A stretch of DNA of 64,000 nt, taken from NCBI RefSeq assembly GCF_000621165.1, contig NZ_JHZA01000001.1:496001-560000 (forward strand), written 5' to 3'. Below the pieces are notes generated by a model. That model did no database searches, was not told the DNA's origin, and saw only the letters and a program-made list of their open reading frames with translations. Shown here one piece after another: positions 19,834 to 49,732 of the stretch (positions within the stretch are counted from its first letter, which is position 1; each line of letters begins with the position of its first letter). The position numbers and the translations under genes were made by a program. The DNA comes from Enterovibrio calviensis DSM 14347. GTDB taxonomy: Bacteria; Pseudomonadota; Gammaproteobacteria; Enterobacterales; Vibrionaceae.

Positions 19834-20493
19834 CTATTGGCCGCGACCGCACACCATGACAACGATGGTACGAACCATAATATGCAGGTCCATTTTCAAC
19901 CAGCTCATTGGCGTAGTTAATGAAAGCGCATACGAATGATCGAATCCCACTTTCGAACGCACATCATCAATGCAGGTATCATAGCCTTGATTGACCTGAG
20001 CGAGCCCTGTGATCCCCGGAGTAACACCATAAGTACGTTCTGCGAAGTAAGGGATCGCATTTTCTAATTTTTGGTAGAAGCCAGGACGTTCTGGGCGCGG
20101 ACCAATAATTGACATATCACCAACTAAAACATTGATGAACTGTGGAATCTCATCCAAACGGGTTTTTCTTAGAAAACGGCCAACACGGGTGACTCGAGGA
20201 TCGGTTTTGGTTGCCCATGTTGCGCCTGTCACGCTTTCGGCGTCAGTACGCATGGTGCGGAATTTGATCATCGGGAACAGCAAACTTTTATCAGGCAGTG
20301 CGCGACCAATGCGCATTTGGCTGAAGAATACAGGTCCACGACTGTCGAGCTTGATGGCGAGAGCAATCAAAGGGAACAAAGGCAGTGTCAGACCGAGGCC
20401 AATCAGAGAAAACAGAATATCAAAACCACGTTTTGCTTTTGCCGTTACTGGGCTGATATCGCTGTTTACGTTCAAGTTCATGCTGATATTCAT
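19834..20493 (-). CDS. sypR: SypR: initiating phosphoglycosyl transferase
   Basis: 219 residues, the bacterial sugar transferase family (PF02397, WcaJ/WbaP catalytic type). One N-terminal re-entrant helix (FDILFSLIGLGLTLPLFPLIAL) is followed by RGPVFFSQ, KFRTM and the DEIPQFINVLVGDMS and GPRPERP motifs. It would move the first sugar phosphate onto undecaprenyl phosphate at the inner membrane, starting the Syp repeat unit. It overlaps sypQ by 4 bp and is the last gene of the locus, as in V. fischeri. Confidence 0.93.
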   Translation of the reverse strand: MNISMNLNVNSDISPVTAKAKRGFDILFSLIGLGLTLPLFPLIALAIKLDSRGPVFFSQMRIGRALPDKSLLFPMIKFRTMRTDAESVTGATWATKTDPRVTRVGRFLRKTRLDEIPQFINVLVGDMSIIGPRPERPGFYQKLENAIPYFAERTYGVTPGITGLAQVNQGYDTCIDDVRSKVGFDHSYALSLTTPMSWLKMDLHIMVRTIVVMVCGRGQ

Positions 20494-21716
20494 AGTGATT
20501 TATCCTTATTATAAGTCTTTGATTCCTCGGAGACACGCGTCCATCGTCCTGTCTCCAAACCTGTTATGTAACGCAATGTACCTATTAGGTTTGCCGTGTG
20601 ACCTGTCACTAAGTATGACAAAGCTTTTGCAATGCTGCTTTTTGGTTTATAGCCAGCAATACGGCAAAACCCGATGGCTACGTAGATAGTGGTTTGCCCC
20701 GCGGCTGCCAAGGCAAAAAAGCTGTTGGATGGCGCGAGGAACGCGCTCCCTAATAACGCGGTGATCATAATAAATGGCATGAGCACACGCAGACCTTTAC
20801 CCGACGCAAATGTGAAGGCGACGCCACCACGAAGAGGGTTGAGCAAAGGCAGTAATCTTGTGAGCTGTTGATAGTTACCGGCGCCAATGCGAAGGCGACG
20901 GCGAAAGTCTTGCGCGGTATTTGTCGGCTCAAGTTCGACCGCTTGAATCGAGTCGTGAATATCAGCGCGAAAGCCTTTTTCCACAATTTGCATCGGCAGA
21001 ACAAAATCGTCATTGATGGTGTCGCCTGCCAGTGGTGTGAACAGTTTGCGGCGAATGAAATACAACGCTCCGTGAGCACCCAGAGATGAACCGAGTTGTG
21101 CTTCATTACGTTGGATCTTTGTTTGGTAATCCCAGTACTTCTGCTCGCCATCTTCTGCTTTGATTAAGCAGTAGCGGCTGTTAAGTACGCCAACGTTTTC
21201 ATCGCTAAAGTGATGCGCTGCGATGTAGAAAGCATCGATTGAAATCAAAGCCGAAATATCGCTCAGTGCCACAATGTCGCCTTGAACGTGAGGCATGGTG
21301 TTGTTGATCACCGCCACTTTTCCCGCGTTGTCGGCGTATTCAATCACAGTGACATCAAGGTGTTTGCAGAGTGCCTCTTCAGCGGTGCGTCTTGCAATGT
21401 TAGCGGTTTCATCCGTGCAACCGTCGCAAGCAAGTACCACATGGATTTTATTGCTTGGGTAGTCCAATGCAGCAAGGTTACGGATCTTATCGGCAATCCA
21501 TTTTTCTTCATTGTAAGCCGGCATCAGGACGCTGATGGTTGGCAAATCAATATCGTCGACACTGTTCTGGTAGCCACGAGCAGGAGTGGTCGTCTCGGTG
21601 TTTTGCGAAGCCGTATCACGGACCAAGACTTTCAGTAGCAGTGGGTAACCCACGTGATGGTAAATCACCAAAATAATACTGATGGTGGTTAGCCAGAATA
21701 TGATTTCATGCGCCAT
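20490..21716 (-). CDS. sypQ: SypQ: membrane glycosyltransferase family 2
   Basis: 408 residues. An N-terminal membrane helix precedes a GT2 domain (SVLMPAYNEEKWI, LACDGCTDET, DDFVLPMQI, and an acceptor-site-like RRRLRIGAGNYQQL). Three or four C-terminal membrane segments follow. The layout resembles processive or chain-forming enzymes such as PgaC/IcaA, though here it acts in a lipid-linked pathway. It overlaps sypP by 11 bp and sypR by 4 bp. Confidence 0.9.
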   Translation of the reverse strand: MAHEIIFWLTTISIILVIYHHVGYPLLLKVLVRDTASQNTETTTPARGYQNSVDDIDLPTISVLMPAYNEEKWIADKIRNLAALDYPSNKIHVVLACDGCTDETANIARRTAEEALCKHLDVTVIEYADNAGKVAVINNTMPHVQGDIVALSDISALISIDAFYIAAHHFSDENVGVLNSRYCLIKAEDGEQKYWDYQTKIQRNEAQLGSSLGAHGALYFIRRKLFTPLAGDTINDDFVLPMQIVEKGFRADIHDSIQAVELEPTNTAQDFRRRLRIGAGNYQQLTRLLPLLNPLRGGVAFTFASGKGLRVLMPFIMITALLGSAFLAPSNSFFALAAAGQTTIYVAIGFCRIAGYKPKSSIAKALSYLVTGHTANLIGTLRYITGLETGRWTRVSEESKTYNKDKSL

Positions 21717-22788
21717 GACAAAGCCCCTCAGTCAAAGAGTCGTAAGCACTCGCCATGGTGCGGATATCTGCGTGATTCGTAACAAAAGCACGAGGGTTTG
21801 ATGGGGTGGCACCGTGTAGGCAGTGAATGATTTTTTCCGCCATGTCACTGGCATCCCCCGCCTTCAATAAACATCCCGATTCTGGACACAGTGTTTCGCT
21901 GGCTCCACCCACATTGGTGACCGCTGTCGGGATGCCACATGCCTGCGCTTCTAACGGTGCGAGAGGGAAACCTTCGTTGAAAGAAGGGAGGCAGAATAGA
22001 TCGAGTGATTGATAGAACTTCGGCATGTTTTCAACATGACCGAGAAAATGAACGCGCTCGCTAAGATTGAGCTGATTGGCTTGGTCTTTCAATGTAGCTT
22101 CCATCGAGCCCGACCCCGCAATGACCAGATGCACATGGTTAGGTAATTCAGCCATGGCAGAAATCAACACCGAGTGCCCTTTCACTTCTTCAAGTCGTCC
22201 GCTGGCACCCACTAGCTTGATGGCATTAGGTAGCTTCATGGCGGCGCGTGCCGTTGGTTTGTGGCCGGGGATGTATTTAGAAGTATCTACACCGTTTTTG
22301 ATAACCAGAACGTCTTGCATACCAGACAAAGAAGACAGCGCATGAGCGACGATGTCAGCATCTGCGACGCAGACGGGTTTGCCAAAAAAAGACACGATGC
22401 GATGCAACACTTGGTGGCGTTTGTTGCTGTAATGCCATGCGTCATGCTCGGTGTGGACATGTGGAATCTTGCTTAGAAACGCAGCAAGACCGCCGTAGAA
22501 GTAAGGGCCGATGTGATGGGTGTGAATAAGATCGGCGTTGAGTGATGTCAGTATGTTTTTCAGTGCGAGAACAGGTGATAGTGAAAACTCGGGTGCTTTG
22601 TTCATAAACACCAACTGATCTTCAAATTCACGAAGTCGAGGCCATGCAGCAATCGCCGTTTCAGCATCACCTTCTAGGCTGACAATCTTCATTGCATGAC
22701 CGTGGTTCGAGAATTTCATCAACTCTAAGGCCATGACTTCGAGTCCGCCTGGTTTGAGATGCTGTACGACTTGAACAATGGTCTTCAT
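21706..22788 (-). CDS. sypP: SypP: glycosyltransferase family 4
   Basis: 360 residues with GT-B folds: an N-terminal QHLKPGGLEVMA segment and a C-terminal GT4 domain with GRLEEVKGHSVLI and the E-x7-E region (NEGFPLAPLEAQACG). It is cytoplasmic and adds a sugar to the lipid-linked repeat. It has its own sigma-54-type promoter at 22829-22844 with a palindrome 74 bp further upstream, so sypP-Q-R form a separate transcription unit, as I recall for V. fischeri. Confidence 0.9.
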   Translation of the reverse strand: MKTIVQVVQHLKPGGLEVMALELMKFSNHGHAMKIVSLEGDAETAIAAWPRLREFEDQLVFMNKAPEFSLSPVLALKNILTSLNADLIHTHHIGPYFYGGLAAFLSKIPHVHTEHDAWHYSNKRHQVLHRIVSFFGKPVCVADADIVAHALSSLSGMQDVLVIKNGVDTSKYIPGHKPTARAAMKLPNAIKLVGASGRLEEVKGHSVLISAMAELPNHVHLVIAGSGSMEATLKDQANQLNLSERVHFLGHVENMPKFYQSLDLFCLPSFNEGFPLAPLEAQACGIPTAVTNVGGASETLCPESGCLLKAGDASDMAEKIIHCLHGATPSNPRAFVTNHADIRTMASAYDSLTEGLCHGA

Positions 22789-22828: not shown

Positions 22829-22844
22829 TGCAGAAGGCGTGCCA
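22829..22844 (-). promoter_or_regulatory. Sigma-54 promoter of sypP
   Basis: On the minus strand the site reads TGGCACGCCTTCTGCA, an excellent -24/-12 match (TGGCACG-N5-TGCA) with GG and GC 10 bp apart. The expected transcript start is ~30 nt upstream of the sypP ATG. Confidence 0.85.
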
Positions 22845-22943: not shown

Positions 22944-25304
22944 TTAGCGTGTCAACGTGATGATCTGCTGTCGCCATATTTCAAGTTGTTGAGGTGTCAC
23001 TGCCAACATGGCATTCCATGTAGTAGGGACTTCGCGCTGAAGTTGCGTGAGTAGTTGCTTTGCTTGAGGGTTGGATTGCGCTTGGCGTTCTAGCCACAGT
23101 ATCCAGCGGTAATCCGTTATGCCCTGCATGATGTCGTAAAGCCTTATGTTAATGTCAGGCTCTTCTGGGCAAGGGTCGTTAGACGGGTAAAGGAACTGCA
23201 CGTCATATTCGCGTCCGTCTGTGGGGTCGAACGGGTCGGCGGTGGGCATGCGGCCGTGCCATTTCAAAAATCCATCAGCATCAGACTGCCAAAGGTAAAA
23301 GCCTGCTGCTGCGCGTGGGTTGGGTAAGTTGTATAACCAAACCTCACGATCATCACCTTGTGCTTGCTGAATTTCGTTTTTATCAATACCAAAGCCGTCG
23401 TTGATCAGCACCAAATCGAACATTGAAAGGTATTCTCTGTCTTTGTCATGGTTGAGGTGACCTGCCAGTTTGGCGCTAGGTGCAAACATGGAAAACTGGC
23501 GATGCATGTCTTTAAACAGGTCAACATTGCCGGGGTTGCTGGGTTCATCGGCAATAGACCAATAAGGCGAAGGCTGAAGCCTGCTTTTGTGTTGAGACTC
23601 AATATGCGAAATCACATTGGCCGCATTTCCTGCACCTAAGGATTGGGTGAGCCTTTTGGCAGGTGCATAGGCCATGGCAGACTGAAAACCCATTTCATTG
23701 AGCTTGATGGAAAGCGTCTCGAACTCGGCTTTTGCATCGTCATTGCTGGGTGTGGGGTAGGGCGGAGAAATGCCCGTTAAGCCTAGTTTTCTCAAAAAGG
23801 TCAGGTCGCACATCATGGCCTGCTGGCCCAAGGGGGCGAGATCTTTAAACCACCCAAAGTGAACGGGTTGTTCAAGATAAATCCCAACAGGTTTTGCCAT
23901 GTCAGGTAGCGCCACATTAACCACATCAACAGAAAAAGCGGTATTGAGAGTCTTGCCTTGCAAGATGATTGAGAGTTCGCCGTGATATATGCCAGGCGGT
24001 GTGCCTTCTGGTACATCAACACGCACCACCATTTTTCTTGGCATGGCGACGCCTTCGTTTTCTGGCATGAGTCCATGACGCAGATAATCATCGTTAGCTT
24101 CAAGTAAGGTAGAAGACAGGTGCGTACGCGTTAACTGCCATTGGCTCCAGTGCCAGTTAGATGGAATGGTCATGCCATTCAGTGAGGGCTGACGCAGCAT
24201 AACCATAGGAGCCCCTTTAATGTTGCCTTGTTCAAACATGAACTGCACAACGGCAGATGTGCCAGGCGCTGCGGTCGCTGGTGAGCTATCCGTATTCAGA
24301 CGAGGTTGCCCGGTTGGCCACTTTTTCCAATTGGCGATGGGCCAGCTTTTCTCCCACCATGCTTTGCGTTGGCGAGTGAGCATGCTCAGTACCAGCGGAT
24401 TACTCTGGGGAACGGCGAGAATGCCGCTCAAAAACTGCGCATCGGTTGAATCGCCACTTAGTCTTAATATCACCGGTCCACCATCACTCGTGACATTGAA
24501 AGTGACGCGGTCACTTTTTCTTTCGCCGTAGTGATCCCAACTGCTACTGTTTGGAGAAATATCGGTGTTTTGTCGACCGAGATAAACCGACTCAATCCAT
24601 TCGGTGGGTGACAAGCGCTGAGTGAACACTGACGTTCCATTGGCTGTGATTTTTCGCTCTAGAGGGTGAGGCAAGTACTCCCATTCTCCCGCATCACGCA
24701 ACCACAATGTGATTTGCCAATCTCCCGCAGGCAACGGTAAGGCGGCGGTTTCAATCCCACGGATACCATCGATGGTTAACGCGTCAACCGCTTGAGCGCG
24801 AGCACCGCGATCGATCGCATTCAACCCGCGACCCGTGAGTAGGCCTGATTTGACGGTGAGTGGCTGAAATCCGGGCCATATGGCGCTGCCTTCTGGCCCC
24901 AGATCCCATGCATATACGTTTTTTCCTAACGGTTTTGGTGTTTCTACTCGCGCTTCTGACAGTGCAAACCCGCGTGGTGTGCTGCCAGCAAAAATGATGA
25001 TTTGCTCTAGTGCGCTGAGATCAAGTTGCCTTCCGCTGGGGGTGCGAAGGCTTGCAAAGGAGATCTGCAATTCAAAGCTGCCTTTGGGGATCACGCGTTC
25101 TATGTTGGCGCGATCGGAGTAACCTGGGTTGACGCTATCATCAGCACGTACCACCACGATGACATCGTCCGAAGATAGATTATTGCCAGACACCATGAGC
25201 ATGCTGGTTTGAGAGACCTGCGATAAATCCTGTTTGTCTAACCTGAGATCGGCAAGCGCAGGCGTGCAGACCATAAGCGTGAGTGAAAGTAGCCAATATT
25301 TCAT
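22944..25304 (-). CDS. Secreted DUF4091-like putative glycoside hydrolase inside the syp locus
   Basis: 786 residues with a signal peptide (KYWLLSLTLMVCTPALA). Residues ~20-460 are beta-rich accessory modules. Residues ~470-760 look like a (beta/alpha)-barrel of the DUF4091 type: GLTGISPPYP, WSIADEPSNPG (possible catalytic Glu587 in the DEP motif), a GFYLWQSDADGFLKWHG segment and a C-terminal GITDYRWILWLE. It starts 37 bp after sypO and probably shares that transcript. I do not recall a gene here in V. fischeri syp. A glycosidase that trims or releases the Syp polymer in the periplasm or outside is a reasonable inference; substrate and activity are unknown. Confidence 0.68.
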   Translation of the reverse strand: MKYWLLSLTLMVCTPALADLRLDKQDLSQVSQTSMLMVSGNNLSSDDVIVVVRADDSVNPGYSDRANIERVIPKGSFELQISFASLRTPSGRQLDLSALEQIIIFAGSTPRGFALSEARVETPKPLGKNVYAWDLGPEGSAIWPGFQPLTVKSGLLTGRGLNAIDRGARAQAVDALTIDGIRGIETAALPLPAGDWQITLWLRDAGEWEYLPHPLERKITANGTSVFTQRLSPTEWIESVYLGRQNTDISPNSSSWDHYGERKSDRVTFNVTSDGGPVILRLSGDSTDAQFLSGILAVPQSNPLVLSMLTRQRKAWWEKSWPIANWKKWPTGQPRLNTDSSPATAAPGTSAVVQFMFEQGNIKGAPMVMLRQPSLNGMTIPSNWHWSQWQLTRTHLSSTLLEANDDYLRHGLMPENEGVAMPRKMVVRVDVPEGTPPGIYHGELSIILQGKTLNTAFSVDVVNVALPDMAKPVGIYLEQPVHFGWFKDLAPLGQQAMMCDLTFLRKLGLTGISPPYPTPSNDDAKAEFETLSIKLNEMGFQSAMAYAPAKRLTQSLGAGNAANVISHIESQHKSRLQPSPYWSIADEPSNPGNVDLFKDMHRQFSMFAPSAKLAGHLNHDKDREYLSMFDLVLINDGFGIDKNEIQQAQGDDREVWLYNLPNPRAAAGFYLWQSDADGFLKWHGRMPTADPFDPTDGREYDVQFLYPSNDPCPEEPDINIRLYDIMQGITDYRWILWLERQAQSNPQAKQLLTQLQREVPTTWNAMLAVTPQQLEIWRQQIITLTR

Positions 25305-25341: not shown

Positions 25342-26835
25342 TTAATTGATGTCGATGATTTTCCCGCTTGATGGCGGCGTACCGGCGTTGTTAGGCAAGG
25401 GCGGGAACTCAGCAACGATTCTCGGAACACGAGTAAGTACGGGGGTTCCTGTTATTGCTTCCAGGGTGGAAATCCGGCGGATAGTGGTATCTGTCAGCTC
25501 TAGTATCACTGCCATGCCACACCCCAAGAATATGCCGCCAATTAGGCCTGCAATGGTGAAGACCAGCAGAGGAAGGTTACTCGGGACACCCGGTGAATAG
25601 GGTCGGTCGATGATTTTGATACGCTTATCTTGCTCGAAGACACCGAGCGAACTGGTAAGGCGCGCCATTTCATGGCGTTCGAGTAATTCTTGAAACAGTT
25701 GACGCTTCACTTCAAGGTCTCGTTCTAACTTGCGAATCTTCTGCTCTTTTTCGCCAGATTGGTTGGTTTTCACTTCCAAGGTGGCAATCATGTTTTTTAA
25801 GCTGATGGTTTCTTCATCTAAGGTCTCGACCTTGCTTCTGGCGAGCTGAAGGTTTTCCAACTGTGAGATCAACAATGGCTGTGACTCGGTGCTCGAATCA
25901 ATCACGGCGCTGCTGGCAATATCCCAAAGTTTATCGGTATCCACCGGTTGCTGTGTCGAGGAAAGAAGTTGAGTACGTTGCTCTTCAAGACGACGTAAGT
26001 TCCTCAATGCGCCTTGTACCAGGCTGTGTTTGTCTGTGTAGCGTGATTTGAGCATGGCCAATTCACTGCGATGTTGGACGATTTGATCTTCTATGCGGCC
26101 GATGACGGGGTTGGTACTGGATAGTTGCTCATCAAGGCCACCAAGGCTTCGTCTTGCGCCTGCCATTTCGGCTTGTTTTTCCGATAGGCGCTGCTTTAGC
26201 TGCTCAATACGGGCGTAGTTCGCCAATTGAAGCTCGGGTAAACCGTCTGCGTGCTTGCTGCGAAAGTCCGAAAGGGCGGCTTCCGCTTTGTCGAGTTCTT
26301 CTCGGCGGTAAGTAATGTGCTCAGAAAGGAATTCGCTGGAATCTTTCATCGAAGAACGTTCTGGCGCGAGCAATTCTTCAATCACGTGGTCGCTGACTAT
26401 CTGCAGGGTTTCTTTCATGCCTGCCGGTGTTGATGAGCGGTATTCAATGCGAATAACGTCTTTACCGATCGTCGACATGGTTAGCCCGTAGGACAACTTC
26501 GCAATGGTTTCATCAACCGTTGCTGGGTCAGAATCTGCGTCAATCATCCCTTGATCGAGCGCCACTTTCCCCAGAATGTGTCGGCTATGCAGCAGCGTTT
26601 GTAGGCCACTAAAGCGCTCTTTCATTTGTGAGGAAACGGATAAGTCTTCAAGAAACGGGTTCATTTTAGAGGTTTCTTGGACCAGCATAGTTGTGTGGGA
26701 ATTGTACTTTTTGGGTGTGATCAGCCCAATGGCCGTGCCCATTAACGGGAAAATGATAATGGGCATCATAATGACGTAGCGACGACGCCACGCGCCATCA
26801 AGTAAGATCAGCAACTTATACGTGAGTGTGTTCAT
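25342..26835 (-). CDS. sypO: SypO: Wzz-type polysaccharide chain-length/co-polymerase protein
   Basis: 497 residues from the ATG at 26835, which overlaps the sypN stop (ATGA). An N-terminal membrane helix (RRRYVIMMPIIIFPLMGTAI) and a C-terminal one (LPLLVFTIAGLIGGIFLG) bracket a large periplasmic coiled-coil region (residues ~150-400). Wzz and GNVR-type features are present. There is no cytoplasmic kinase domain; SypD is the separate ATPase-like partner. It sets chain length and links polymerisation to export. Confidence 0.9.
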   Translation of the reverse strand: MNTLTYKLLILLDGAWRRRYVIMMPIIIFPLMGTAIGLITPKKYNSHTTMLVQETSKMNPFLEDLSVSSQMKERFSGLQTLLHSRHILGKVALDQGMIDADSDPATVDETIAKLSYGLTMSTIGKDVIRIEYRSSTPAGMKETLQIVSDHVIEELLAPERSSMKDSSEFLSEHITYRREELDKAEAALSDFRSKHADGLPELQLANYARIEQLKQRLSEKQAEMAGARRSLGGLDEQLSSTNPVIGRIEDQIVQHRSELAMLKSRYTDKHSLVQGALRNLRRLEEQRTQLLSSTQQPVDTDKLWDIASSAVIDSSTESQPLLISQLENLQLARSKVETLDEETISLKNMIATLEVKTNQSGEKEQKIRKLERDLEVKRQLFQELLERHEMARLTSSLGVFEQDKRIKIIDRPYSPGVPSNLPLLVFTIAGLIGGIFLGCGMAVILELTDTTIRRISTLEAITGTPVLTRVPRIVAEFPPLPNNAGTPPSSGKIIDIN

Positions 26836-27980
26836 AGTACATCCAACCAAGCGTTGAGTGTTTTTGCTCGTGCATCCCACGTATGCATGCTGACGGCGGT
26901 TTGCTGTTGAGGATTGGGCTTTGTATTGGCTGCGGTGTTCAGTGCTTCTGCCATTTCACTGGCGGTATGCACCACGGACACATAACTTCTATATTCGTCG
27001 ACTGCTGGAAACGGCGTACTGATCACTGGTCTACCTGCGGCGAGGTATTCGCGAAGCTTTAACGGGTTGCAGGCTCTAATTTGGGCGTTATCAACGAAGG
27101 GCAACAAGCTGGCTGACCAATGCTGGCTGTAGCCAGGAAGCTCATGATGGGGCTTAGGACCCAGCAAGGTGACGTTGGCGTGCTGCTTGAGTGACAGCGC
27201 GGCATCACAGGGCTTACCGATGAACACGAAGTTCCATTCGGGCATAGAAAGTATGGTTTGGTTCAGCAAGTCATAGTCAAGCCAGTCGGACAAGGAACCA
27301 TAAAATCCAGCGGTTGGTTTTCCGTTGTCAGGGAGATCTTGCGCGCGCTGAGCCGGCGTCGAAAACAAATCATAGTCGACACCGTGCGGAAGCAGCTTGG
27401 TGTGCCTATTCGAAAAGCGCGTATAGAGCGTCTCGCTCGCGGCCAGAATAAGATCGGCTTTTTGCACCAAATCCTTCTCACGTTGGGCTACCGTGTTGTG
27501 GTCAACGCCCGCTAACGATGAAAAGTCGTCACCACAGTAGTAAACCAGTGACGATGCGCCTAGTTGGTCGGATACATCAACTGCGGTAGGAAGCGAGGTC
27601 CACATTATCGGGTTATACAATTTTGCGTGTTCGATAATGGGAACAAGCTGTTTGCGCAGCATACTCGCCGCCAGTTTGCGTCCCCATGTGGAGCGCGGAG
27701 CTGGCAGGGTAGAAGGATTAACCACGGTTAGGTTTTCAGGTTGAGTTGTTTTTTGGGATTGGTGTGAAGCATCAACGGGAGAGCCGTTCGATGATTGACC
27801 GCTCGCAGTGAGTTTGTGCCACGCTCGCTTGCAGTCATTCAAGGTGAATGTCGGGCGACGCAAACCAATTGAGTTGACCCATACCACTTTACGATCTTGT
27901 GAAAGACGACAAATCAAATGTTGAGTGCTAGACGGCAATCCGCCCCAATCTTCTCCGAAAACAATCAGATCCCGTTTCAT
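26832..27980 (-). CDS. sypN: SypN: glycosyltransferase
   Basis: 382 residues with a GT-B layout. The N-terminus (DLIVFGEDWGGLPSSTQHL) and the C-terminal acceptor-proximal region (NPLKLREYLAAGRPVISTPFP) match GT4-like enzymes of exopolysaccharide loci. It is cytoplasmic. It overlaps sypM and sypO by 4 bp each, so the three are one translationally coupled set. Confidence 0.86.
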   Translation of the reverse strand: MKRDLIVFGEDWGGLPSSTQHLICRLSQDRKVVWVNSIGLRRPTFTLNDCKRAWHKLTASGQSSNGSPVDASHQSQKTTQPENLTVVNPSTLPAPRSTWGRKLAASMLRKQLVPIIEHAKLYNPIMWTSLPTAVDVSDQLGASSLVYYCGDDFSSLAGVDHNTVAQREKDLVQKADLILAASETLYTRFSNRHTKLLPHGVDYDLFSTPAQRAQDLPDNGKPTAGFYGSLSDWLDYDLLNQTILSMPEWNFVFIGKPCDAALSLKQHANVTLLGPKPHHELPGYSQHWSASLLPFVDNAQIRACNPLKLREYLAAGRPVISTPFPAVDEYRSYVSVVHTASEMAEALNTAANTKPNPQQQTAVSMHTWDARAKTLNAWLDVL

Positions 27981-28699: not shown

Positions 28700-28749
28700 T
28701 GTCGTGCTCCTTGCCATTCCGCTATCGGTGACGGTCTAACTAAGGATTA

Positions 28750-33998: not shown

Positions 33999-34042
33999 GT
34001 CGTCACCTTTTTCTACATTCAATATTCAAGACTCCAATCAAC

Positions 34043-41747: not shown

Positions 41748-42455
41748 CTAGATCTCCAACGACAATAAGTGGCTTTTTAAAATGGCGAGTCTGAGTTTTC
41801 CCGCAAGCTTTGGCATGTATTTCGATAACCGGCCAATTTCGCGCAAAATCTCGACTTTGAGTGATGGGTTGTTCTTATCGTTAAGCACACAGCCGAGGAG
41901 ATGCGCGCCTGCATCGTTGAGTTTTTTGACTGATTCTGAGGCTTGCGCTTCAGTAGTTTGTCCCGTCATCACGACCATGATGGTGCCGTCAGCCGCGGCC
42001 GCGACGCGCTCAGGGGGGATGTTATTCGCATTCAGTCGTGAGATCGGTGATGTATCAAAAATAACCAAATCGAAGTCTTTGTGCCATTGCTTCACATATT
42101 CTTCCAAAGAGCCTGGGCGACGTAACTCCATGATGGTCTCGCGCTTAGACGGTGCAATGATCCCGGTGAAATAAGTGCTTTCGCCGGATACACCGACGAG
42201 TTCCGGGCTAGGGAGTTGATGATTGTCATAAGTGGTGACCGTCATTCCCTGACTTTCAAGGCTCGGATGATAGAGATTCAAGTCCACCACCAGCGTGGAT
42301 TTACCCGCCAGCAGAGAACGGTGTGCGATAGCACTCGCGAGCGATGTGACCCCTTCACCTGACTCGGTTGCAGTCAACGCGAGGGTTTTGTAATCGTTGC
42401 GGACAATCTGAAAGTAAATCCGCTCTACTTCTACGTTCCACGGAGGAATATTCAT
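41748..42455 (-). CDS. sypD: SypD: CpsD/Wzc-like ATPase with altered Walker A
   Basis: 235 residues, similar in fold to the cytoplasmic kinase part of BY-kinases (CpsD/CapB). The Walker A region reads ATESGEGVTSLASAIA; the lysine expected in GEGKST is replaced by valine. The Walker A'-like LVVDLNLYHPS and Walker B DLVIFDTSPIS are kept. There is no C-terminal tyrosine cluster. So it may bind nucleotide poorly or act as a structural partner of SypO. It overlaps sypC at TAATG. Confidence 0.87.
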   Translation of the reverse strand: MNIPPWNVEVERIYFQIVRNDYKTLALTATESGEGVTSLASAIAHRSLLAGKSTLVVDLNLYHPSLESQGMTVTTYDNHQLPSPELVGVSGESTYFTGIIAPSKRETIMELRRPGSLEEYVKQWHKDFDLVIFDTSPISRLNANNIPPERVAAAADGTIMVVMTGQTTEAQASESVKKLNDAGAHLLGCVLNDKNNPSLKVEILREIGRLSKYMPKLAGKLRLAILKSHLLSLEI

Positions 42456-44566
42456 TAGAGTAATCCTATCAGGGCGGCAATCCCTGCCAGTTGGAAGACA
42501 TCAGTGATACCTTGACGAATTTTTTCTGCAGTGCTTTCTTCTTTGGTGGGCACGTAAACCGTGTCACCGACACGCAAGACAGGAAGATCTTGGAATCGCG
42601 CAGTACGGCTAAATTCAGACAAGTTAAAGGTTTTTGCTTGATCACGACAACAGGACACATTCACGACGGTAATTCGTTCTATGTAGGCGTTGTTGCTGGG
42701 GCCGCCTGCTTCAGCGAGAAGGTCAAGAATGGTCATATGATCGTCAAAGGTGTATCGGCCTGGTTTGTTGACCGCACCTAGCACGCGAATCGTATTTTCT
42801 TTCGACAAGTCGAGCCAGTTACGATCTTTTTCAGGAATGTAAATGGTGTCGCCGATATTGACCTCGGGCAAGATAGTTGAGTCGCCCGTTTCAAAGAACA
42901 GCGCGAGATTTAATTTACTGACGCGAGCGACATTGCCATCAAGGTGCGTAATACGAATATTGTGTAAATCGGCTTGTGCGGTTGGACCATCGGCGGCAGA
43001 AAGAATATCGAGGAAGTGCATTTCTTCTGTAAATTTGTAACGTCCTGGTGCGCCCACTTGCCCAAACACATAAATGGATGTGTCTGAGCTTTGTCGAATC
43101 CATTTGGCTTTGTTGTCGACGGGGTCGTCCGGTAAGTCATGCACACGAACCGTTGAACCTGCTTTGATCGGCGGTAGCTCGGTATCTGCCAAGCCATCAC
43201 GAATGAAGGTGTCGAGGTTGAAGGTATACACTTTAGATTTAGTGGCAGAGACGGGGGTGACTATCTCTATTTTACTGGTGTCAGCGCGAGAAGTAGGGCC
43301 GCCGACGTGAGCCAACAAATCGAGCAGCGACATTTCTTGCGACCATTCAATACGGCTAGGACGGACGACTTCACCAAACACTCTCACGGCACGGTCCGGA
43401 GAGACTTTTAGCCATGATTTTTCATTGAGGTCGAGTTTCTCTGGTACGAATATCGCATCGCCGGGCAGTACCAATGGCAGTGGGCCAGTCAATTTCCCTT
43501 CCGAAAACAGGGTGAGATCGAACCCTACAGTTTCTCCACTTCCTCTAATAATGCGGATTTGGCGACTTTCTGCAAATCGTGTTGGTCCGCCCGCATTGGC
43601 GAGAATATCAATAAATGTCGCCCCTTCTTTGCCTTCATACGCGCCGGGTTTTGCGACTTCTCCCATGACATAAACGGTGTTAGAGCCGGTTTTGATTTCT
43701 TCTTCTTGTTTCGGAACAAAAATGGTGGAGCCTTCGACAATGTTCGGCAGCAGTGCTTCATCGCCACTGTCTAAATACTGCTTGAGGTTGAAGATACGCG
43801 GTTCACTTTTGGAGATAACACGGATTTGTTCGACAGCGGCGAAACGTGTCACGCCACCCGATCGCATGAGCAAGTCCACCAAGTTATTTTCTTCCTTGGC
43901 GGAGAAGCTTCCTGGGCGAATGACCTCGCCAAAGACTTTGATGGCTTTTCTGTCTTCAGCGGCATCGCCAGAATCTGCAAGTTTAGACGGGTCAAAACTT
44001 TGCTCAACGTTGCCAATCATTGGTGATGCGGGAATGAATAGGGTATCTAGTGAGTTTAAGGTCGGTAATAGGCTGTCATCACCCGAATCGAGGAATTTTT
44101 TGTAGTCAAAGGTGCTGACTTCTTCACCGCGTCGCAATTGAAATCTGTCGAGTTGCGCCCCTGGACGAAGACCACCCGCAGCATAGAGGGCCATTTGAAT
44201 CGATGCTTCGTTGGGTAGGGTAAATTCACCCGGTTCAGCAACGTAACCTTGTATGGTAACAATGAGCTGACGCTTGCTGACATAAACTTGTAGAGAAGAG
44301 AGATCACGAATCACCTCATTCAGTGTTTTATTGACGGCGTTGGCCAGCGCTTCTTCCGTCATCCCTGCGGCTTGCACCATGCCCACTTCTGGGAGCGTCA
44401 AACGCCCTTGACGGTCAATCTGGAATTCTTTGTTCAGCATGACTTCACCCGGTAGCATGATAGCCACCAAATCGCCGATCTGTACGCGATATTCTTCCGA
44501 TTGCACTTTTGCCACATTGGCAAAAACCAAGACAGAAAACAGGATGAGAGTCAGTGCATGCTTCAT
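42455..44566 (-). CDS. sypC: SypC: outer-membrane polysaccharide export protein with six SLBB repeats
   Basis: 703 residues with a signal peptide (KHALTLILFSVLVFANVAKVQS). A Wza-like polysaccharide export domain (PF02563) covers ~25-100 (YRVQIGDLVAIMLPG). Six SLBB-type repeats follow, starting near 103, 209, 298, 395, 498 and 595, each with a G-x-V-x-x-P-G core and a downstream LLxxxGG element. Wza has far fewer. The C-terminal hydrophobic stretch (LAGIAALIGLL) is very short. It forms the outer-membrane exit channel. It overlaps sypB by 4 bp. Confidence 0.92.
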   Translation of the reverse strand: MKHALTLILFSVLVFANVAKVQSEEYRVQIGDLVAIMLPGEVMLNKEFQIDRQGRLTLPEVGMVQAAGMTEEALANAVNKTLNEVIRDLSSLQVYVSKRQLIVTIQGYVAEPGEFTLPNEASIQMALYAAGGLRPGAQLDRFQLRRGEEVSTFDYKKFLDSGDDSLLPTLNSLDTLFIPASPMIGNVEQSFDPSKLADSGDAAEDRKAIKVFGEVIRPGSFSAKEENNLVDLLMRSGGVTRFAAVEQIRVISKSEPRIFNLKQYLDSGDEALLPNIVEGSTIFVPKQEEEIKTGSNTVYVMGEVAKPGAYEGKEGATFIDILANAGGPTRFAESRQIRIIRGSGETVGFDLTLFSEGKLTGPLPLVLPGDAIFVPEKLDLNEKSWLKVSPDRAVRVFGEVVRPSRIEWSQEMSLLDLLAHVGGPTSRADTSKIEIVTPVSATKSKVYTFNLDTFIRDGLADTELPPIKAGSTVRVHDLPDDPVDNKAKWIRQSSDTSIYVFGQVGAPGRYKFTEEMHFLDILSAADGPTAQADLHNIRITHLDGNVARVSKLNLALFFETGDSTILPEVNIGDTIYIPEKDRNWLDLSKENTIRVLGAVNKPGRYTFDDHMTILDLLAEAGGPSNNAYIERITVVNVSCCRDQAKTFNLSEFSRTARFQDLPVLRVGDTVYVPTKEESTAEKIRQGITDVFQLAGIAALIGLL

Positions 44567-45372
44567 TTGGCGGCTCCTTGAAAGAGAGGGCTCGTCGGCG
44601 CTTCAATCAATTCAATGGATACGCGTCGATTCACCAAGCGTTCTTGTGGTTCGTTGCCATCAAACAGAGGGTCGGTTGATCCGACTGCAGCGACGGTAAG
44701 GCGTGAAGGAGCAATGCCAAATATTTGTAAGTAACGTTTTACTTGGTTGGCTCGTGCAAGGGAAAGTGCCTTGTTGGCCCTTTGATTACCAATTGAGTCA
44801 GTGTGCCCAGTAATGTGCAGAGTGTATTGAGGTAAGTCGCGTAACAAGTGCGCGGCTTCCGCTAAGTGGCCCATGTATTTGGGATTAACTTCGGGAGAAT
44901 TGAATGCAAATTGGTTGTCGATATTCAGCAACGCGTAGATTTCTTCAGCCAGTTGGGAGGCCGAGGCATATTGGCCAGTTCCGTTTGGCGTGCAGGCCCC
45001 ACTTTTTACGACGGCATCTAGCTGTTTTTCCAATCGTTCGAGTGCAGCTCGCTGAATAATCAGATCGTTAGCCGCATCAAACTCTAAACCGCCATGCAAT
45101 TCTCTTACAATGCGAGCCTGCATGCGACGTGCTTGATAAACGGTGGCAGGAAAACACAGTTCAGCCCCTTCTAGGACCAATACATCTAGATGGCGGGCTG
45201 ATAGTTCCCATTCAAATCGTAAGCCATGTTCCGGGCCGATAGGCTGATCAGCCAATACAGGAGAGAGAGCCGAATAATGGTGCTCTGCCATTCCGCCTTC
45301 GCCGTCATCGGGAAACATCGAGCAGCCTGAAGTCATTGCAGTGATGATGATAAGCGTTGAGAGTTTTCTCAT
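44563..45372 (-). CDS. sypB: SypB: OmpA-domain lipoprotein
   Basis: 269 residues. A lipoprotein signal ends in TSGCSM. The C-terminal ~105 residues form an OmpA peptidoglycan-binding domain (LHITGHTDSIGN, LARANQVKRYL, NRRVSIELI). The N-terminal part has a DUF-like helical region with two cysteines. It lies 29 bp after sypA and overlaps sypC, matching the V. fischeri order. It may anchor the export channel to the cell wall. Confidence 0.9.
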   Translation of the reverse strand: MRKLSTLIIITAMTSGCSMFPDDGEGGMAEHHYSALSPVLADQPIGPEHGLRFEWELSARHLDVLVLEGAELCFPATVYQARRMQARIVRELHGGLEFDAANDLIIQRAALERLEKQLDAVVKSGACTPNGTGQYASASQLAEEIYALLNIDNQFAFNSPEVNPKYMGHLAEAAHLLRDLPQYTLHITGHTDSIGNQRANKALSLARANQVKRYLQIFGIAPSRLTVAAVGSTDPLFDGNEPQERLVNRRVSIELIEAPTSPLFQGAAK

Positions 45373-45401: not shown

Positions 45402-45728
45402 TTAACCGGCATTCGGTGCAGTTTCTACAGATATCGCACTATTGATGCGTAATAAGTTGATGATTTCTAAAGGTTGACCATGTACATGGGTGAGGGCGAG
45501 CGTTTTGCCGCCAGCCTTGAGTCTTTTGAAGAGAAAGACGATGGCGCCAATGCCAGAACTATCAAGAAAGTCGACTTGACCAAGATTGAGGGTAATATCC
45601 GTGAGCGATTCCGCGTTCACAAGTTCATCTAATTCAGGTTGAAGCTCACTGCAGCCTTGTGCATCCATATCGCCATGGATGAGGATAAGCAGAGAATCAT
45701 TAGATTGTTCGATGCGTTCGATTTGCAT
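45402..45728 (-). CDS. sypA: SypA: STAS-domain anti-sigma-factor-antagonist-like protein
   Basis: 109 residues from the ATG at 45728; the frame opens earlier at 45803 but that part would run through the promoter. A single STAS domain with the regulatory DSSGIG motif (residues 56-61); Ser57 corresponds to the serine that SypE phosphorylates in V. fischeri SypA. Unphosphorylated SypA promotes biofilm there, by a mechanism beyond transcription. It heads the sypA-G unit. Confidence 0.93.
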   Translation of the reverse strand: MQIERIEQSNDSLLILIHGDMDAQGCSELQPELDELVNAESLTDITLNLGQVDFLDSSGIGAIVFLFKRLKAGGKTLALTHVHGQPLEIINLLRINSAISVETAPNAG

Positions 45729-45763
45729 GATGTGGTGCCTCTCCTGTATGACTATCTGTACTA

Positions 45764-45779
45764 AGCGAAATCTATGCCA
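45764..45779 (-). promoter_or_regulatory. Sigma-54-like promoter of sypA
   Basis: On the minus strand the site reads TGGCATAGATTTCGCT. The -24 TGGCA is intact and GG/GC spacing is right; the -12 box is TCGC instead of TTGC. The expected start is ~26 nt before the sypA ATG. Confidence 0.65.
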
Positions 45780-45841
45780 AGTATATATATCAATATAAAA
45801 CAATGAGATACGATAGTACCTTCATGAGTGGACAGGCTTTT

Positions 45842-46019: not shown

Positions 46020-47843
46020 TTATGTATTGAAACTGATATGTTTTCGTCCCATCCAGTTTGTAATGGCTTGGATCATGGTTTGCTTGTTGACGGGCTTAGC
46101 CAGAAAATCGTCCATACCCACTTGTTTACATTTATTTCTATCGTGAGCGGTGACGTTTGCTGTCATGGCAAGGATAGGCATGGTTCTGCCTTGTTCGTTG
46201 AGATGGCGAATGGTCTCACAGGCAGCAAAACCATCCATTTCTGGCATCTGTAAGTCCATGAGAATCAACTCATAGTGTGAGTTTTCGATAGCATCGATAG
46301 CTTCTTGTCCATTGCACGCAATGGAGACGACAAAACCAGCGCTCTCTAACATGGTGCGAGCGACGAGTTGATTGGCGGGGTTGTCTTCAACCAATAGAAT
46401 ATTGTTGGGCCTATGTGTCTTGAAGACTTTCTTCTGTATCTCTTTGCTAGAAGAGTGCTCTGGGTATCGCATGTCGCAAGGCAGAATGATGGTAAATTCG
46501 CTACCAATATCTAAGCGGCTTTCAAGTGTCAGCTCCCCACCGATTAATTCCACAAGACGTTTTGATATGGCCAGCCCCATACCGACGCCCCCGTAGGTGC
46601 GAGAGAATGTGGGGTCTTTTTGTGTGAAGGGCTCGAAAATAGCCTCTCTATCAACTTGCGCTATACCTATCCCTGAATCGCAGATTTGCAGTTTTAACCC
46701 CGAAGGGTAGGCATGGCTCAGGGTTAATTCTATTTCTCCTTCTTGCGTGAACTTGAGGGCGTTTCCAACAATATTGGTGAGTACTTGAGAGAGTTTGCCT
46801 TTGTCTGTGTATGCGATGATGCGATGGTTTAATCGTTCATCGAATATTAACGAGATATTTTTTGTCGTGGCATTCTTTTCGAACATTGAAAGCACATGCT
46901 CGCCCAGCTCAGCAACATCAAATTCTTCGTTTCGTACATCCAGCGAACCAATATCCAACTTGGAATAGTCCAAAATATCGTTTAACTGGTTGAGCAGAAG
47001 GTTAGCTGAATCGTTCGCCATGGTGATGAGAACCTTGCAGTGTGGAGGCAATCTTTCCTCTTTGAGTATGTCTACGGCACCCAAAATGGCGTTCATTGGC
47101 GTTCTTATTTCATGGCTCATGCTGGCAATAAATTGGGATTTGGCAATGTTGGCCGCTTCAGCAGCTTCTCTCGCTTCACTCAGTTCTTGCTCTCGTTGTT
47201 GTTGTTCGTGGATGTGTTTATCTAGCTCGTCGACACAGAAATTCAAACGCGTCATCTCATTGTCGCTAGAGGTTTGATTTTCTTGACTGTTTGAAAGGGT
47301 TTGCAAACGACCAGAAATACGAGCCAATGGTTTGAATACAAGGAAATGAGAGACAACCACGACGAGCGTACTGAGCAATAAGACAACCAGAGCGGAAAAG
47401 TATCGAATTTGTTCACTATGGAGTGCGATATCTTCAAGCATTTGTTTTTTGCTCATGGATATCTGCATAAACCCAATGTGCTTATCGTCGGCACTGATGG
47501 GGTTGACGAAGTTCAACGCCATCGGGTTATTATCATGAGGCTTGTCGCCCCATTGTCCGATTTCCACGCCATCGTTGGTCACGATAGAGACATAACAAAG
47601 GTCAGGGTAGTGCTTAGCCATGAGCAACAACTTTTCATTTAACACACCCGACTCTTGCGTTGTCATGTTTTCTGAAAGCGCAGAGATCAATGCACTAAAA
47701 TTTGCACGGATTTGCATGTCCATCCGGCTTTCAAGATAGTTGCGTTCTATTTGCCCAGCGACATTGCTCGCGAGATAGCTGATGCCAGCAGTAAGTAAAA
47801 TGACTGACACAATATATTTCGCCCAAAGCGATAACCTCTGCAT
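46020..47843 (-). CDS. Hybrid sensor histidine kinase without Hpt domain, next to sypA
   Basis: 607 residues from the ATG at 47843, chosen because AAGGAGG lies 6 nt upstream; the frame stays open to 48089 but that part looks non-coding. A first membrane helix ([21 protein letters not shown]), a periplasmic sensor of ~120 residues, a second helix ([20 protein letters not shown]), a short HAMP-like/coiled linker, HisKA with His244, HATPase ([16 protein letters not shown]) and a receiver with Asp530. It stops right after the receiver: no Hpt. A role in syp control through an Hpt on another protein, such as SypF, is inferred from position and promoter. RscS plays such a role in V. fischeri but has its own Hpt and is unlinked. 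Confidence 0.88.
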
Positions 47844-48217
47844 GTTTTGCCTCCTTCGGGCCATGTGCGTCATTCCTGTTCTCACTTTGACAGCAAGGCT
47901 GAACGTCAGATTAGGAATGTCTGTGTGATACGGCGTTGAATGGGCCGTAACGTCCTTTATTACCCTATCTATGCACGTAGCTTGCCAATCTGTTGGTTTG
48001 ACCAAATTTAGTGGCGGGTCGTTATCGTCGGTGATGCTGATGGTGATGGTTGTTGGAAGAGGTGGTAGTGAGGACGGAGGCACTGGCAATAGGTGGGGGA
48101 TTAGGGCAACAAAAGACGGGAGTCATTCACTGCGACAAAAACTGCAAATCTCAGCATTAAACCACAGCACTAAATCACGGCACCAAATCACATCGTTGAG
48201 TTACCGCAGTGGTGTTG
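47844..48217. other. Intergenic region between sypL and the hybrid kinase gene
   Basis: These ~374 bp carry no supported gene. They contain the sigma-54-like site at 47972-47987. A long Pro/Thr-rich open frame continues upstream of the kinase start but resembles no protein. Confidence 0.45.
47972..47987 (-). promoter_or_regulatory. Sigma-54-like promoter of the hybrid kinase gene
   Basis: On the minus strand the site reads TGGCAAGCTACGTGCA, with TGGCA at -24, GTGCA at -12 and correct spacing. It would give a ~118-nt leader. No palindromic enhancer candidate was found at 63 or 74 bp upstream. Confidence 0.5.
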
Positions 48218-49732
48218 CTATCGGCGGCCTGGCGGTGTTGCCTGATTCTTAGCTTCGTCAGAAGGTGGGTGAGGTTCTGTATCCGTATTTCCGTCGGGTG
48301 GGCTGTCATCACTGAGGTGACTCTCTGCCTTTAACCTCGCTTCTTCGACTTTGACGTAGTGGGCGACAGACGCTGTCAGAGCAACCAAAATGTAGATTGG
48401 CCAAGTGAACCCCTGTGTGAGGAAGGTGCCTGACACACAGAAGGCAATAATGCCCGAGAACAATCCTTCCGAAATACAGCGAACCACGGGAGGGTAAACA
48501 TCGGATTTTTGGGTGACTAGAGAGACCGTTTTTTGCGCCGAGCGAAACACAATAAAGGTCATGGACAAAAACGCAGTCAGGCCTAAAAAGCCTGTCTCTC
48601 CTAGCACACCAAACCACGTGCTATGAACCGCATGGTTTAGGCCATCCCAATGTGGCGAATAAAAGAAGTAGTTGAAGTAGAAATTGTTCAGGCCCACGCC
48701 AGAGAACGGGTTGTCGACCGCCATGAAAAAGGCGGCTTCCCACGCGTAAAGGCGACCTTTTGCTGATTCATCTAAGCCGTCTTCGGCAGCACCGCCTGAT
48801 TTACGGCCACTGATCCCAGCTACCATGAACAAGATCAAACACAAGAGTCCCCCCACGCTGAACAGCAAGGTTTTAGATTTCACGCGTCGCCAAGCGATCG
48901 TGCCGACGGCCGACAGAATACCCAGTATGCCGCCACGGCTTTGTGTGCCAATAATGGCGATAAACAGTGCGATAGCAGTGACTAAGCCAATAAAGCGCGC
49001 TTTTTTGGGTAAACCCGACGTGATGGTAATGCTCACCGCAAACGAGAACGGGAACAAAAGCACGAGCGCCAAATCATTGGGGTCGCCCAATACAGAGCCT
49101 AACTCTCTACCGACAGTGACACGGGTTTCTTCCACCATGCCTATGCCGTTCACCTTGTTGAAAATGGTTACCATAGCAACAGACAAGCCTGAAGCCACAA
49201 TCATGATCAACGCGTTGCGATAGTGTTTTGCATGACACAGTAACCATGCAAGGGCGGGTGTCATGATGCCAATTTTGACGTAGATGTTTTTGTAGTACGC
49301 AAATGCCTCACCGGTATTGCTCGCTAGAGGCACACCAATTGTAACCAGCAGCAAGAAGACATAGAAACTGTTGAGCTCCTTGCTGTGAAACATCTTTATC
49401 TTGCCGCTCAGGCCGATATGCCATGCCAAGGTGGTGAGCGTGCCCAAAGACAGCATGAGCGGAATTTTCAACGAATACAGAGGGGCAAATGCTTCATGAA
49501 GGCGGAAGAACGAAAACGCAATGAACAAGAGCCCAAACAAGACAGGTTGTGAAAGCGTGATCAGCAGGGCAATGGGCAGTAAGCCAACAACTAACGGAAT
49601 AATCGGGTGCGGAATGATCAGCCATACCACACACGTTAGCGCGACAAATAGTGCGGTTACGTGTACGAAATGGGTTCTGAGCCGCACTAGCAGCATGTTT
49701 TGCTGCTCGCTTATCCAGCTAAGTAGTTGCAT
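48218..49732 (-). CDS. sypL: O-antigen ligase/polymerase family protein, relocated SypL
   Basis: 504 residues from the ATG at 49732; a GTG at 49741 is possible. About 10-12 membrane segments with the Wzy_C/O-antigen ligase domain: long periplasmic loop around 310-360 (GRLYAWEAAFFMAVDNPFSG, with VGLNNFYFNYFF and a conserved His in HSTWFG). The C-terminal tail is hydrophilic and rich in Pro, Asp and Ser. In V. fischeri this family member lies between sypK and sypM, where there is a gene-free gap here. A perfect sigma-54 promoter lies just upstream, so regulation with syp is very likely. It would polymerise or transfer the Syp glycan in the periplasm. Confidence 0.82.
   Translation of the reverse strand: MQLLSWISEQQNMLLVRLRTHFVHVTALFVALTCVVWLIIPHPIIPLVVGLLPIALLITLSQPVLFGLLFIAFSFFRLHEAFAPLYSLKIPLMLSLGTLTTLAWHIGLSGKIKMFHSKELNSFYVFLLLVTIGVPLASNTGEAFAYYKNIYVKIGIMTPALAWLLCHAKHYRNALIMIVASGLSVAMVTIFNKVNGIGMVEETRVTVGRELGSVLGDPNDLALVLLFPFSFAVSITITSGLPKKARFIGLVTAIALFIAIIGTQSRGGILGILSAVGTIAWRRVKSKTLLFSVGGLLCLILFMVAGISGRKSGGAAEDGLDESAKGRLYAWEAAFFMAVDNPFSGVGLNNFYFNYFFYSPHWDGLNHAVHSTWFGVLGETGFLGLTAFLSMTFIVFRSAQKTVSLVTQKSDVYPPVVRCISEGLFSGIIAFCVSGTFLTQGFTWPIYILVALTASVAHYVKVEEARLKAESHLSDDSPPDGNTDTEPHPPSDEAKNQATPPGRR

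Follow-up and report, generated by a model that had tools for sequence, protein, structure and literature searches.

The squid symbiont Vibrio fischeri uses the syp gene cluster to colonize its host, and Syp serves as a model of a host-colonization polysaccharide. We have analyzed here a stretch of 64,000 nucleotides from Enterovibrio calviensis DSM 14347 (contig NZ_JHZA01000001.1, positions 496,001 to 560,000), which we call the window and to which all coordinates without a locus handle refer. It contains one full syp locus at 19834-49741. Domain searches recovered all 18 sypA-R functions, each as a single open frame. Read on the minus strand from 49741 to 19834, the order is sypL, a hybrid histidine kinase gene, sypA-B-C-D-E-F-G, sypH-I-J-K, sypM-N-O, a hydrolase gene and sypP-Q-R; an epimerase gene, flanked by sypG and sypH, is the sole one on the plus strand. 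Seventeen of the 18 syp genes follow the V. fischeri order, and sypL is the sole displaced one. A preliminary description of this DNA had held that all 18 functions can be assigned, that sypL is moved, that an epimerase and a putative hydrolase are inserted and that a hybrid kinase sits at the upstream end. Domain matches and gene order bear out each of these points (18 of 18 functions): sypL lies at the 5' head of the locus, outside the slot between sypK and sypM, with the kinase between it and sypA, and the hydrolase gene separates sypO from sypP.

All genes of the locus other than the epimerase gene lie on the minus strand. The displaced sypL (48218..49741; probable start at 49732, an ATG at codon 4, judged by eye and equal to the end point in the preliminary description) encodes a protein of the Wzy/O-antigen-ligase family and is the presumed polymerase (Wzy_C, 3.4e-20; TIGR03097, 122.9 bits, below the cut-off of 188.1). 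The hybrid kinase (46020..48089; probable start around 47873, an ATG at codon 73, again by eye) has the layout HisKA-HATPase-REC with no Hpt match and is TorS/LuxQ-like, below the cut-offs. SypA (45402..45803) is a STAS protein with an LDSSG motif; its start is probably near 45728 by eye, and several homologues have 108 residues. It is followed by sypB (OmpA, 44563..45372), sypC (Poly_export and SLBB, 42455..44566) and the tyrosine-autokinase-like sypD (41748..42455; TIGR01007 and TIGR03029 below their cut-offs, no Pfam match at 0.001). SypE (40210..41745) combines an RsbW-like kinase, a REC domain and a SpoIIE phosphatase, and by its domains and the STAS serine motif the pair of SypA and the SypE kinase-phosphatase is present. 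SypF (37037..40075) reads PAS-PAS-HisKA-HATPase-REC-Hpt, and SypG (35492..36922) reads REC, sigma54 activator and HTH. The epimerase gene (34411..35370, plus strand) encodes an NAD-dependent enzyme. Glycosyltransferases are encoded by sypH (32982..34022), sypI (31526..32833), sypJ (30387..31529), sypN (26832..27980), sypP (21706..22788) and sypQ (family 2, 20490..21716). The remaining genes are sypK for a Wzx-type flippase (28966..30390), sypM for a hexapeptide acyltransferase (27977..28717), sypO for a Wzz chain-length protein (25342..26880), the putative GH123-superfamily glycosidase gene (22944..25304) and sypR for a Bac_transf sugar transferase, presumably the initiating one (19834..20493).

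In the loci compared, from Vibrio, Psychromonas, Aeromonas and others, the counterparts of the window proteins are syp genes and stand in syp order. Public genomes were scanned with SypG alone, 80 matches being kept; for the other proteins the comparison covered the loci collected here. SypG shows 97% identity with its counterpart in Enterovibrio sp. ZSDZ42 and 80% with those in E. coralii and Grimontia indica. The anglerfish symbionts Candidatus Enterovibrio escacola (77%) and Ca. E. luxaltus (75%) follow, and the Vibrio proteins stand at 56-60%. Within Vibrio syp loci the values are 61-65% for SypC and 55-60% for SypG. SypH-K are divergent, with about 30-44% identity to Vibrio; this low identity and the restriction of the global best-match scan to SypG would fit an unrelated exopolysaccharide locus that merely resembles syp. 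We regard such an origin as very improbable, since the order A-B-C-D, G, M-N-O and P-Q-R is kept and SypC and SypG show the identities just given to the proteins of Vibrio syp loci. The conserved A-R order is complete here for 17 of 18 genes. Content and layout vary among loci accepted as syp or scv (PMC8941931; published work is cited here from parts of the articles' texts), and gene order was for this reason not treated as excluding the locus from syp. The locus belongs to the syp family, as a variant with its own layout. The same syp order occurs in seven genus genomes including the window, and since three of the six others carry it on contigs of 1.7-3.2 Mb, a rearrangement created by misassembly deserves practically no credence.

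SypG identity was not used as a sign of kinship or horizontal transfer; many of the 80 matches lie outside syp loci. A transfer of the whole locus from outside the Vibrionaceae was considered and set aside. The tree of SypC, SypD and SypG (35 rows) unites Enterovibrio with Vibrio at a support of only 68, so that it shows neither vertical descent nor transfer. G006 with its fragmented genes was left out of both this and the SypL tree, and G013 and L017, for which no SypC was available, were left out of the former (handles with G denote genomes, those with L loci). A second SypG-like gene of the genus (53-57% identity), which we take to be LuxO, was set aside; two of its contexts are not syp.

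SypG at an identity of at least 75% was found in 15 genomes of the genus out of 18, and sypL is present in exactly these 15. Their syp region was read wholly or partly, in E. nigricans (G017) only from sypA to the epimerase gene, and sypL is absent from the slot between sypK and sypM in all 11 loci read across it. In a first group (group i: the window, ZSDZ42, G014, G. indica, G016, G009 and G006) sypL heads the locus, and in six of these seven genomes the extra hybrid kinase follows it. In G002 sypL is inverted and adjoins sypA. All seven genomes of a second group (group ii: E. coralii, G003, E. nigricans, G010, G005 and the two anglerfish symbionts) have sypL apart from the locus. The orphan sypL of the five free-living members occupies one conserved site, where it follows a response-regulator/kinase pair and precedes genes that by eye are pgsA-, uvrC- and uvrY-like; in Ca. 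E. luxaltus it lies on contig C2 and the other syp pieces on C1. Outside the genus all 10 Vibrio and T64 loci read with both genes have sypL after sypK, it adjoins sypK in those Aeromonas contexts that show both, and it comes after sypH in three Vibrio loci that have no sypI-J-K. As a separate observation, a glmS-like gene stands ahead of sypM in six relatives, in L099 at 11768-13642 (minus strand) and in five further loci of the genus; SypG-type sites with 0-1 mismatch lie upstream of it. The gene is absent from the window, and such a gene has been described in E. coralii (PMC5801674).

Linked and orphan SypL copies form one clade with a support of 100/100 (14 of the 15 copies), which argues that sypL was moved and not replaced from outside. 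SypL of the window groups with the orphan copies (98/95), but the tree of SypC, SypD and SypG places the window with Grimontia (94). The locus had been thought to be a lineage-specific version of the Syp system. This stands for the displaced sypL, which in the loci read is confined to the genus, all 15 syp-positive genus genomes having the gene. The upstream kinase occurs in only six of these 15, and a hybrid kinase directly before sypA is also found in Vibrio ulleungensis (L037). The idea fails for the epimerase, present in three gammaproteobacterial loci outside the genus, and for the hydrolase, present in syp loci of Aeromonas as well. The preliminary description mentions neither the sigma54-type sites ahead of sypL, sypH and the epimerase gene nor the exosortase-like module of sister species, both treated below. 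A published comparison scores L as absent in Enterovibrio calviensis and reports no eps cluster in Grimontia (PMC5801674). A relocation would leave the old slot empty and may explain the first entry, while G. indica carries a syp locus, in contrast to the second. The scored absence would also suit a different reading, in which the gene called sypL encodes a ligase of the same superfamily (WaaL or an exosortase-associated O-ligase), the real Wzy being absent or encoded at another place. Wzy_C covers both Wzy proteins and ligases, and the best NCBIfam model, TIGR03097, describes an exosortase-associated O-ligase, below cut-off. Such a ligase nevertheless appears improbable to us, because the window protein is 46-55% identical to the protein encoded after sypK in the syp loci of Vibrio and T64 and because its gene has a sigma54-type site of the syp kind.

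This site belongs to a set found by scanning for TGGCACN5TTGCW with GG and GC fixed; all promoter-like sites given here are consensus matches only. Upstream activating sequences (UAS) were compared with the published SypG site TTCTCANNNTGMDWN (PMC10162802). The site of sypL, TGGCACGTACTTTGCT (49768..49783, minus strand), has no mismatch and is accompanied by a UAS-like site with one mismatch at 49878-49892 (minus strand). SypH is likewise preceded by a perfect site, TGGCACTAACCTTGCT (34043..34058, minus strand), and the epimerase gene by a site with one mismatch on its own strand (34370..34385, plus). Further minus-strand sites, each paired with a UAS-like site, lie before sypP (22829..22844, one mismatch; UAS-like site at 22917-22931 with none), sypA (45764..45779, two mismatches; 45841-45855, one), sypI (32867..32882, two; 32955-32969, one) and sypM (28750..28765, two; 28827-28841, one). 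The UAS-like sites of sypA, I, M, P and L, all with 0-1 mismatch, are placed 76-109 nt upstream of the sigma54 sites. The 64-kb window holds five sigma54 sites with at most one mismatch, and four of them lie 21-41 nt before sypL, sypH, the epimerase gene and sypP.

The arrangement is conserved in the genus. A fixed scan of 320 nt finds a site with at most one mismatch before sypL in 12 of 15 genomes, and the count rises to 14 of 15 once G016 and G006, with overlong or broken frames, are scanned over 700 nt; G002 has two mismatches. All seven orphan copies have such a site, five of them a perfect one. In the same 320-nt scan sites were found before sypH (14/14), the epimerase gene (12/14) and sypP (11/14). 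The control genes (hydrolase, sypF, G, J, N and astE) gave two of 79 together, both at sypN, and 46 of 4000 random windows of 320 nt contained a site. No sypL site was seen in the 10 loci where sypL follows sypK or in six Aeromonas loci; the three Vibrio loci without sypI-J-K do have a sigma54-type site before sypL. Before the epimerase gene, sigma54-like sites outside the genus occur in L017 (no mismatch) and L025 (two mismatches).

Several observations weigh against control of these genes by SypG and sigma54. The number of sigma54 sites in the window, five, does not exceed what chance gives (a Markov mean of 2.4 and a maximum of 7 in 40 simulations), and the sites of sypA, sypI and sypM carry two mismatches there. 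In relatives, sites are missing or poor before sypA (G002), sypI (G006 and G002), sypP (G003 and Ca. E. escacola) and, in most genomes, sypM. The UAS before sypL is weak in group i, with one mismatch in the window and none within one mismatch elsewhere; a UAS within this limit precedes only five of the seven orphan copies, and none lies between sypH and the epimerase gene in the window. Of 24 UAS matches in 64 kb, 19 lie in the locus and about half of these fall inside genes, so that the UAS motif alone is weak evidence. The placement of the sigma54 sites, unlike their number, is out of the ordinary. For the hybrid kinase, sigma54-like and UAS-like sites near 47879-47987 were considered as a possible promoter, but their order is not a sensible one. 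Taken from the consensus sites and their conservation, the moved sypL would have stayed in the SypG/sigma54 circuit.

For the epimerase, the best matches in the PDB are 6wjb (2.1e-71) and 6wj9 (2e-70), which we take to be PelX structures, followed by 6dnt, 4zrm and WbgU, with WbpP further down. The protein has the Gly-rich NAD motif GGCGFIG at 13, Tyr144 and Lys148 of a YxxxK motif, and Ser278 at the gatekeeper position, which aligns with a serine in 6wjb; a small gatekeeper residue is the rule for UDP-N-acetylglucosamine (UDP-GlcNAc) C4-epimerases of the PelX/WbpP type. The window enzyme is probably a PelX-like UDP-GlcNAc C4-epimerase. PelX yields UDP-N-acetylgalactosamine (UDP-GalNAc; PMC9135694). 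Fourteen of the 15 genus genomes have the gene behind sypG in inverted orientation, separated from it by one gene in G002. It was not seen beside the syp pieces of Ca. E. luxaltus, where the neighborhood was inspected and no genome-wide search was made. Outside the genus, L017, L019 and L025 carry an inverted epimerase gene after sypG with 56-65% identity.

The hydrolase has 786 residues and, by eye, a signal peptide, and is probably exported. GH123_cat was found in seven of 10 aligned rows at 0.01 and over the cut-off in seven of 18 genus genomes, and Asp586-Glu587 is invariant in all 10 rows (nine of the 14 genus copies and one from Aeromonas). A consecutive Asp-Glu pair has been described for GH123 (PMC11087588). 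In a profile search of the PDB, 8k2f (0.18) and 8k2h (0.76), by entry name a beta-N-acetylgalactosaminidase and a beta-N-acetylhexosaminidase, were both non-significant matches, and Asp586-Glu587 aligns with the Asp-Glu of 8k2h within its match. Two remote relatives, weak matches themselves, fit the GH123 catalytic or N-terminal models, with one model each over the cut-off. Other observations speak against an assignment to GH123. The PF13320 match of the window protein barely passes (24.1 bits against a cut-off of 23.1) and covers residues 665-735, not the Asp-Glu pair, and an unrelated 71-residue protein (0.38) scored between the two glycosidases in the profile search. A single-sequence PDB search gave nothing at E 10, the A. 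dhakensis homologue matched no Pfam family at 0.1, and the homologue in G548 hit GH123_cat only at 0.091. The single-sequence structure model, which could have revealed the beta-sandwich and (beta/alpha)8 barrel of GH123, was unusable (pLDDT 34.7). We speak of a putative GH123-type enzyme.

The distribution of the hydrolase gene follows syp in two lineages. It was found in 14 of 61 relatives, all within the genus; in six of 20 genomes behind the named loci, namely five of Enterovibrio/Grimontia and A. dhakensis; in nine of 394 genomes of the order sample, the window and eight of one other genus (Aeromonas, judging by A. dhakensis); and in four of 369 genomes of the class sample, the window, a strong match in G548 and two weak ones. 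Each of the 14 genus genomes with the hydrolase gene has it next to sypO; both genes are missing in E. nigricans, whose locus runs into a contig end. Among 37 Aeromonas species, the 14 with the hydrolase are also the 14 with sypN (E at most 1e-60), and the two genes are adjacent by coordinates in every one of them; 12 of these contexts were read. The gene thus travels with syp in Enterovibrio and Aeromonas. Against a general link stands its absence from 13 of the 14 non-genus genomes behind the named loci, the syp carriers T64 and Psychromonas included and A. dhakensis being the exception.

In relatives, the hydrolase is often accompanied by a further module. Six group ii genomes have three genes after sypK (read through to sypM in four), which encode an exosortase-like membrane protein, a small partner and a secreted protein. 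The exosortase-like protein has an invariant Cys, Asn-x-x-Arg and His; in two tested copies TIGR04178 scored 19.5 and 22.8 of 23 bits, just below the cut-off, and there was no Pfam match. The secreted protein is a DUF4114 protein (two tested) and ends in P-L/M-P-P-M-A-Q-S-L-x-G, a hydrophobic stretch and basic residues; the copy of Ca. E. escacola deviates, and the exosortase-like gene of Ca. E. luxaltus contains a stop. In Aeromonas the exosortase-like enzyme stands beside the hydrolase in 11 of 12 contexts, with all three module genes in 10 of 12, and the secreted protein of A. dhakensis is of the DUF1194/VWA type with a similar ending, P-x-x-A-Q-x-L-x-G. Representative positions are L096:4046-6586 (plus strand), L105:13820-16330 (minus strand) and L115:10206-12418. 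In the class sample the exosortase-like profile matched one genome of 369, G548, the same that has the strong hydrolase match; here an exosortase-like gene and, by eye, a partner-like gene lie between sypF and sypL (L178), and the hydrolase is on another contig. The genome of the window gave no exosortase-like match, and no frame in the window has a sorting-signal ending.

These associations bear on the substrate of the hydrolase. GH123 enzymes are beta-N-acetylgalactosaminidases of glycoconjugates (PMC11087588), and the hydrolase and the exosortase-like gene occur together in the six group ii genomes, in the 11 Aeromonas contexts and in G548. The enzyme could accordingly act on mucin-type glycans of the host or on a glycan carried by the neighboring sorting-signal protein instead of on the Syp polysaccharide (SYP). 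We see this as a serious but rather unlikely alternative, because the hydrolase is kept beside sypO in eight genus genomes that have no exosortase-like gene (the window group and G002), beside sypN in one such Aeromonas context (G283), and beside sypO wherever the latter was found in the genus. An action on SYP itself is what we favor. With considerable reservation, one might also speculate that the window locus is a reduced version of a wider architecture, doubtful as this is, in which the making of SYP would be tied to the anchoring of one matrix protein at the surface, SypL, related to exosortase-associated O-ligases, would act on lipid-linked SYP and on the protein, and the hydrolase would edit the junction. 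The lineages in question are Enterovibrio group ii, Aeromonas and G548, and a single secreted protein of the P-x-x-A-Q-x-L-x-G type occurs in two of the three.

Two further points concern SypD and the reduced symbionts. Tyrosine autokinases carry a Walker A lysine. At this position SypD has valine in 31 of 35 loci, the window included, alanine in one and serine in one, with two Marinomonas rows unreadable by pattern; SypD is possibly a dead kinase given this replacement. Ca. E. escacola MJ02 has an intact, full-length sypG with 77% identity (L015:10001-11425), which contradicts the statement that sypF and sypG are not found in any E. escacola genome (PMC6773444). SypF is degraded in both anglerfish symbionts (L120 and L015; L118 and L016), the open remainder being REC-Hpt in Ca. 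E. escacola and the Hpt part only in Ca. E. luxaltus. In V. fischeri a sypF deletion is complemented by the SypF Hpt domain on its own (PMC12369376). The syp genes of Ca. E. luxaltus are split into four pieces (L016, L111, L127 and L129), comprising A-G, H-K with the exosortase-like module, M-R with the hydrolase, and sypL on C2; A-E, G, H-K, M-R and sypL were all found despite this separation. The orphan sypL of Ca. E. escacola (L128:9672-11102) holds one or two stop codons by scan, and polymerization may therefore be lost in this symbiont. In the window itself, Tad/Flp pilus genes (secretin, RcpC/CpaB, prepilin peptidase) at 14168-16843 lie about 3 kb past the syp locus.

We consider it likely, taking all parts together, that this Enterovibrio syp locus makes a Wzx/Wzy-type exopolysaccharide for biofilm formation or host attachment under SypG/sigma54 control, with GalNAc provided by the epimerase and the polymer trimmed by the hydrolase; the use of the promoters, the identity of the sugar, every enzyme activity and the phenotype are predictions from the sequence. 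SypF, and probably the extra kinase too, would phosphorylate SypG upon a signal; since it lacks an Hpt domain of its own, the extra kinase would need that of SypF. SypG and sigma54 would then fire separate units headed by sypL, sypA, sypH, the epimerase gene, sypI, sypM and sypP. SypR and the glycosyltransferases would build the repeat unit with UDP-GalNAc supplied by the epimerase, SypK would flip it, SypL polymerize it, SypO set the chain length and SypC/B export the chain, with SypE and SypA acting after transcription. The exported GH123-type enzyme might trim or cut the polymer at beta-GalNAc or related linkages. SypL has left its slot between sypK and sypM in the genus and would have been kept in the SypG/sigma54 circuit. 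This suggests that the circuit rather than gene order holds the pathway together, even with sypL on C2 of a reduced anglerfish symbiont. To our knowledge, little is known about the sugars of Syp. An epimerase of its own and a likely matching glycosidase in the locus lead us to predict GalNAc in SYP, and the hydrolase is a candidate enzyme for testing this. A paper of 2025 still called the Syp polysaccharide putative (PMC12369376).

Loci of this family have been described before, and syp-type loci were already known in Enterovibrio, Aeromonas and others; scv of V. parahaemolyticus, rbd of V. vulnificus and eps/HE800 of V. diabolicus belong to the same family (PMC8941931). A displaced sypL with its own sigma54-type site and a link of the hydrolase to syp were not found in print, judged from the open-access literature with figures and supplements aside. 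The words hydrolase, epimerase and exosortase do not occur in the text of PMC8941931, nor hydrolase and epimerase in that of PMC5801674, figures and supplements not covered in either case, and no exosortase-like syp module was seen in titles and abstract openings of the open-access literature. The scv locus has 15 genes and is without sypE, F and M (PMC8941931), in contrast to the window with all 18. The Aeromonas loci (A. dhakensis and others) share the GH123-type hydrolase, there beside sypN, but differ in gene order and strands, keep sypL by sypK and have the exosortase-like gene in most contexts. The hydrolase resembles GH123/DUF4091 beta-N-acetylgalactosaminidases in its marginal PF13320 score, its invariant Asp-Glu pair and its probable export, but it is distant from them and has no significant match to a solved member. 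PslG of the psl locus, likened here by description only, is also a glycoside hydrolase whose gene belongs to an exopolysaccharide locus (PMC9075953). PelX offers the closest solved structures for the epimerase, but serves Pel in the pel loci. The nearest model remains the V. fischeri syp locus, compared here by its published description. It consists of four operons (PMC8941931), among them sypIJKL, followed by an operon with sypM (PMC4263508). Both loci share the 18 functions, the sypA-G regulators, sigma54-type sites at sypA, I, M and P and the SypG-type UAS. SypA and sypP head operons in V. fischeri. In the window, unlike in V. fischeri, sypL has left the sypIJKL operon, an epimerase, a hydrolase and a kinase have been added, and extra sigma54-type sites stand before sypL, sypH and the epimerase gene.

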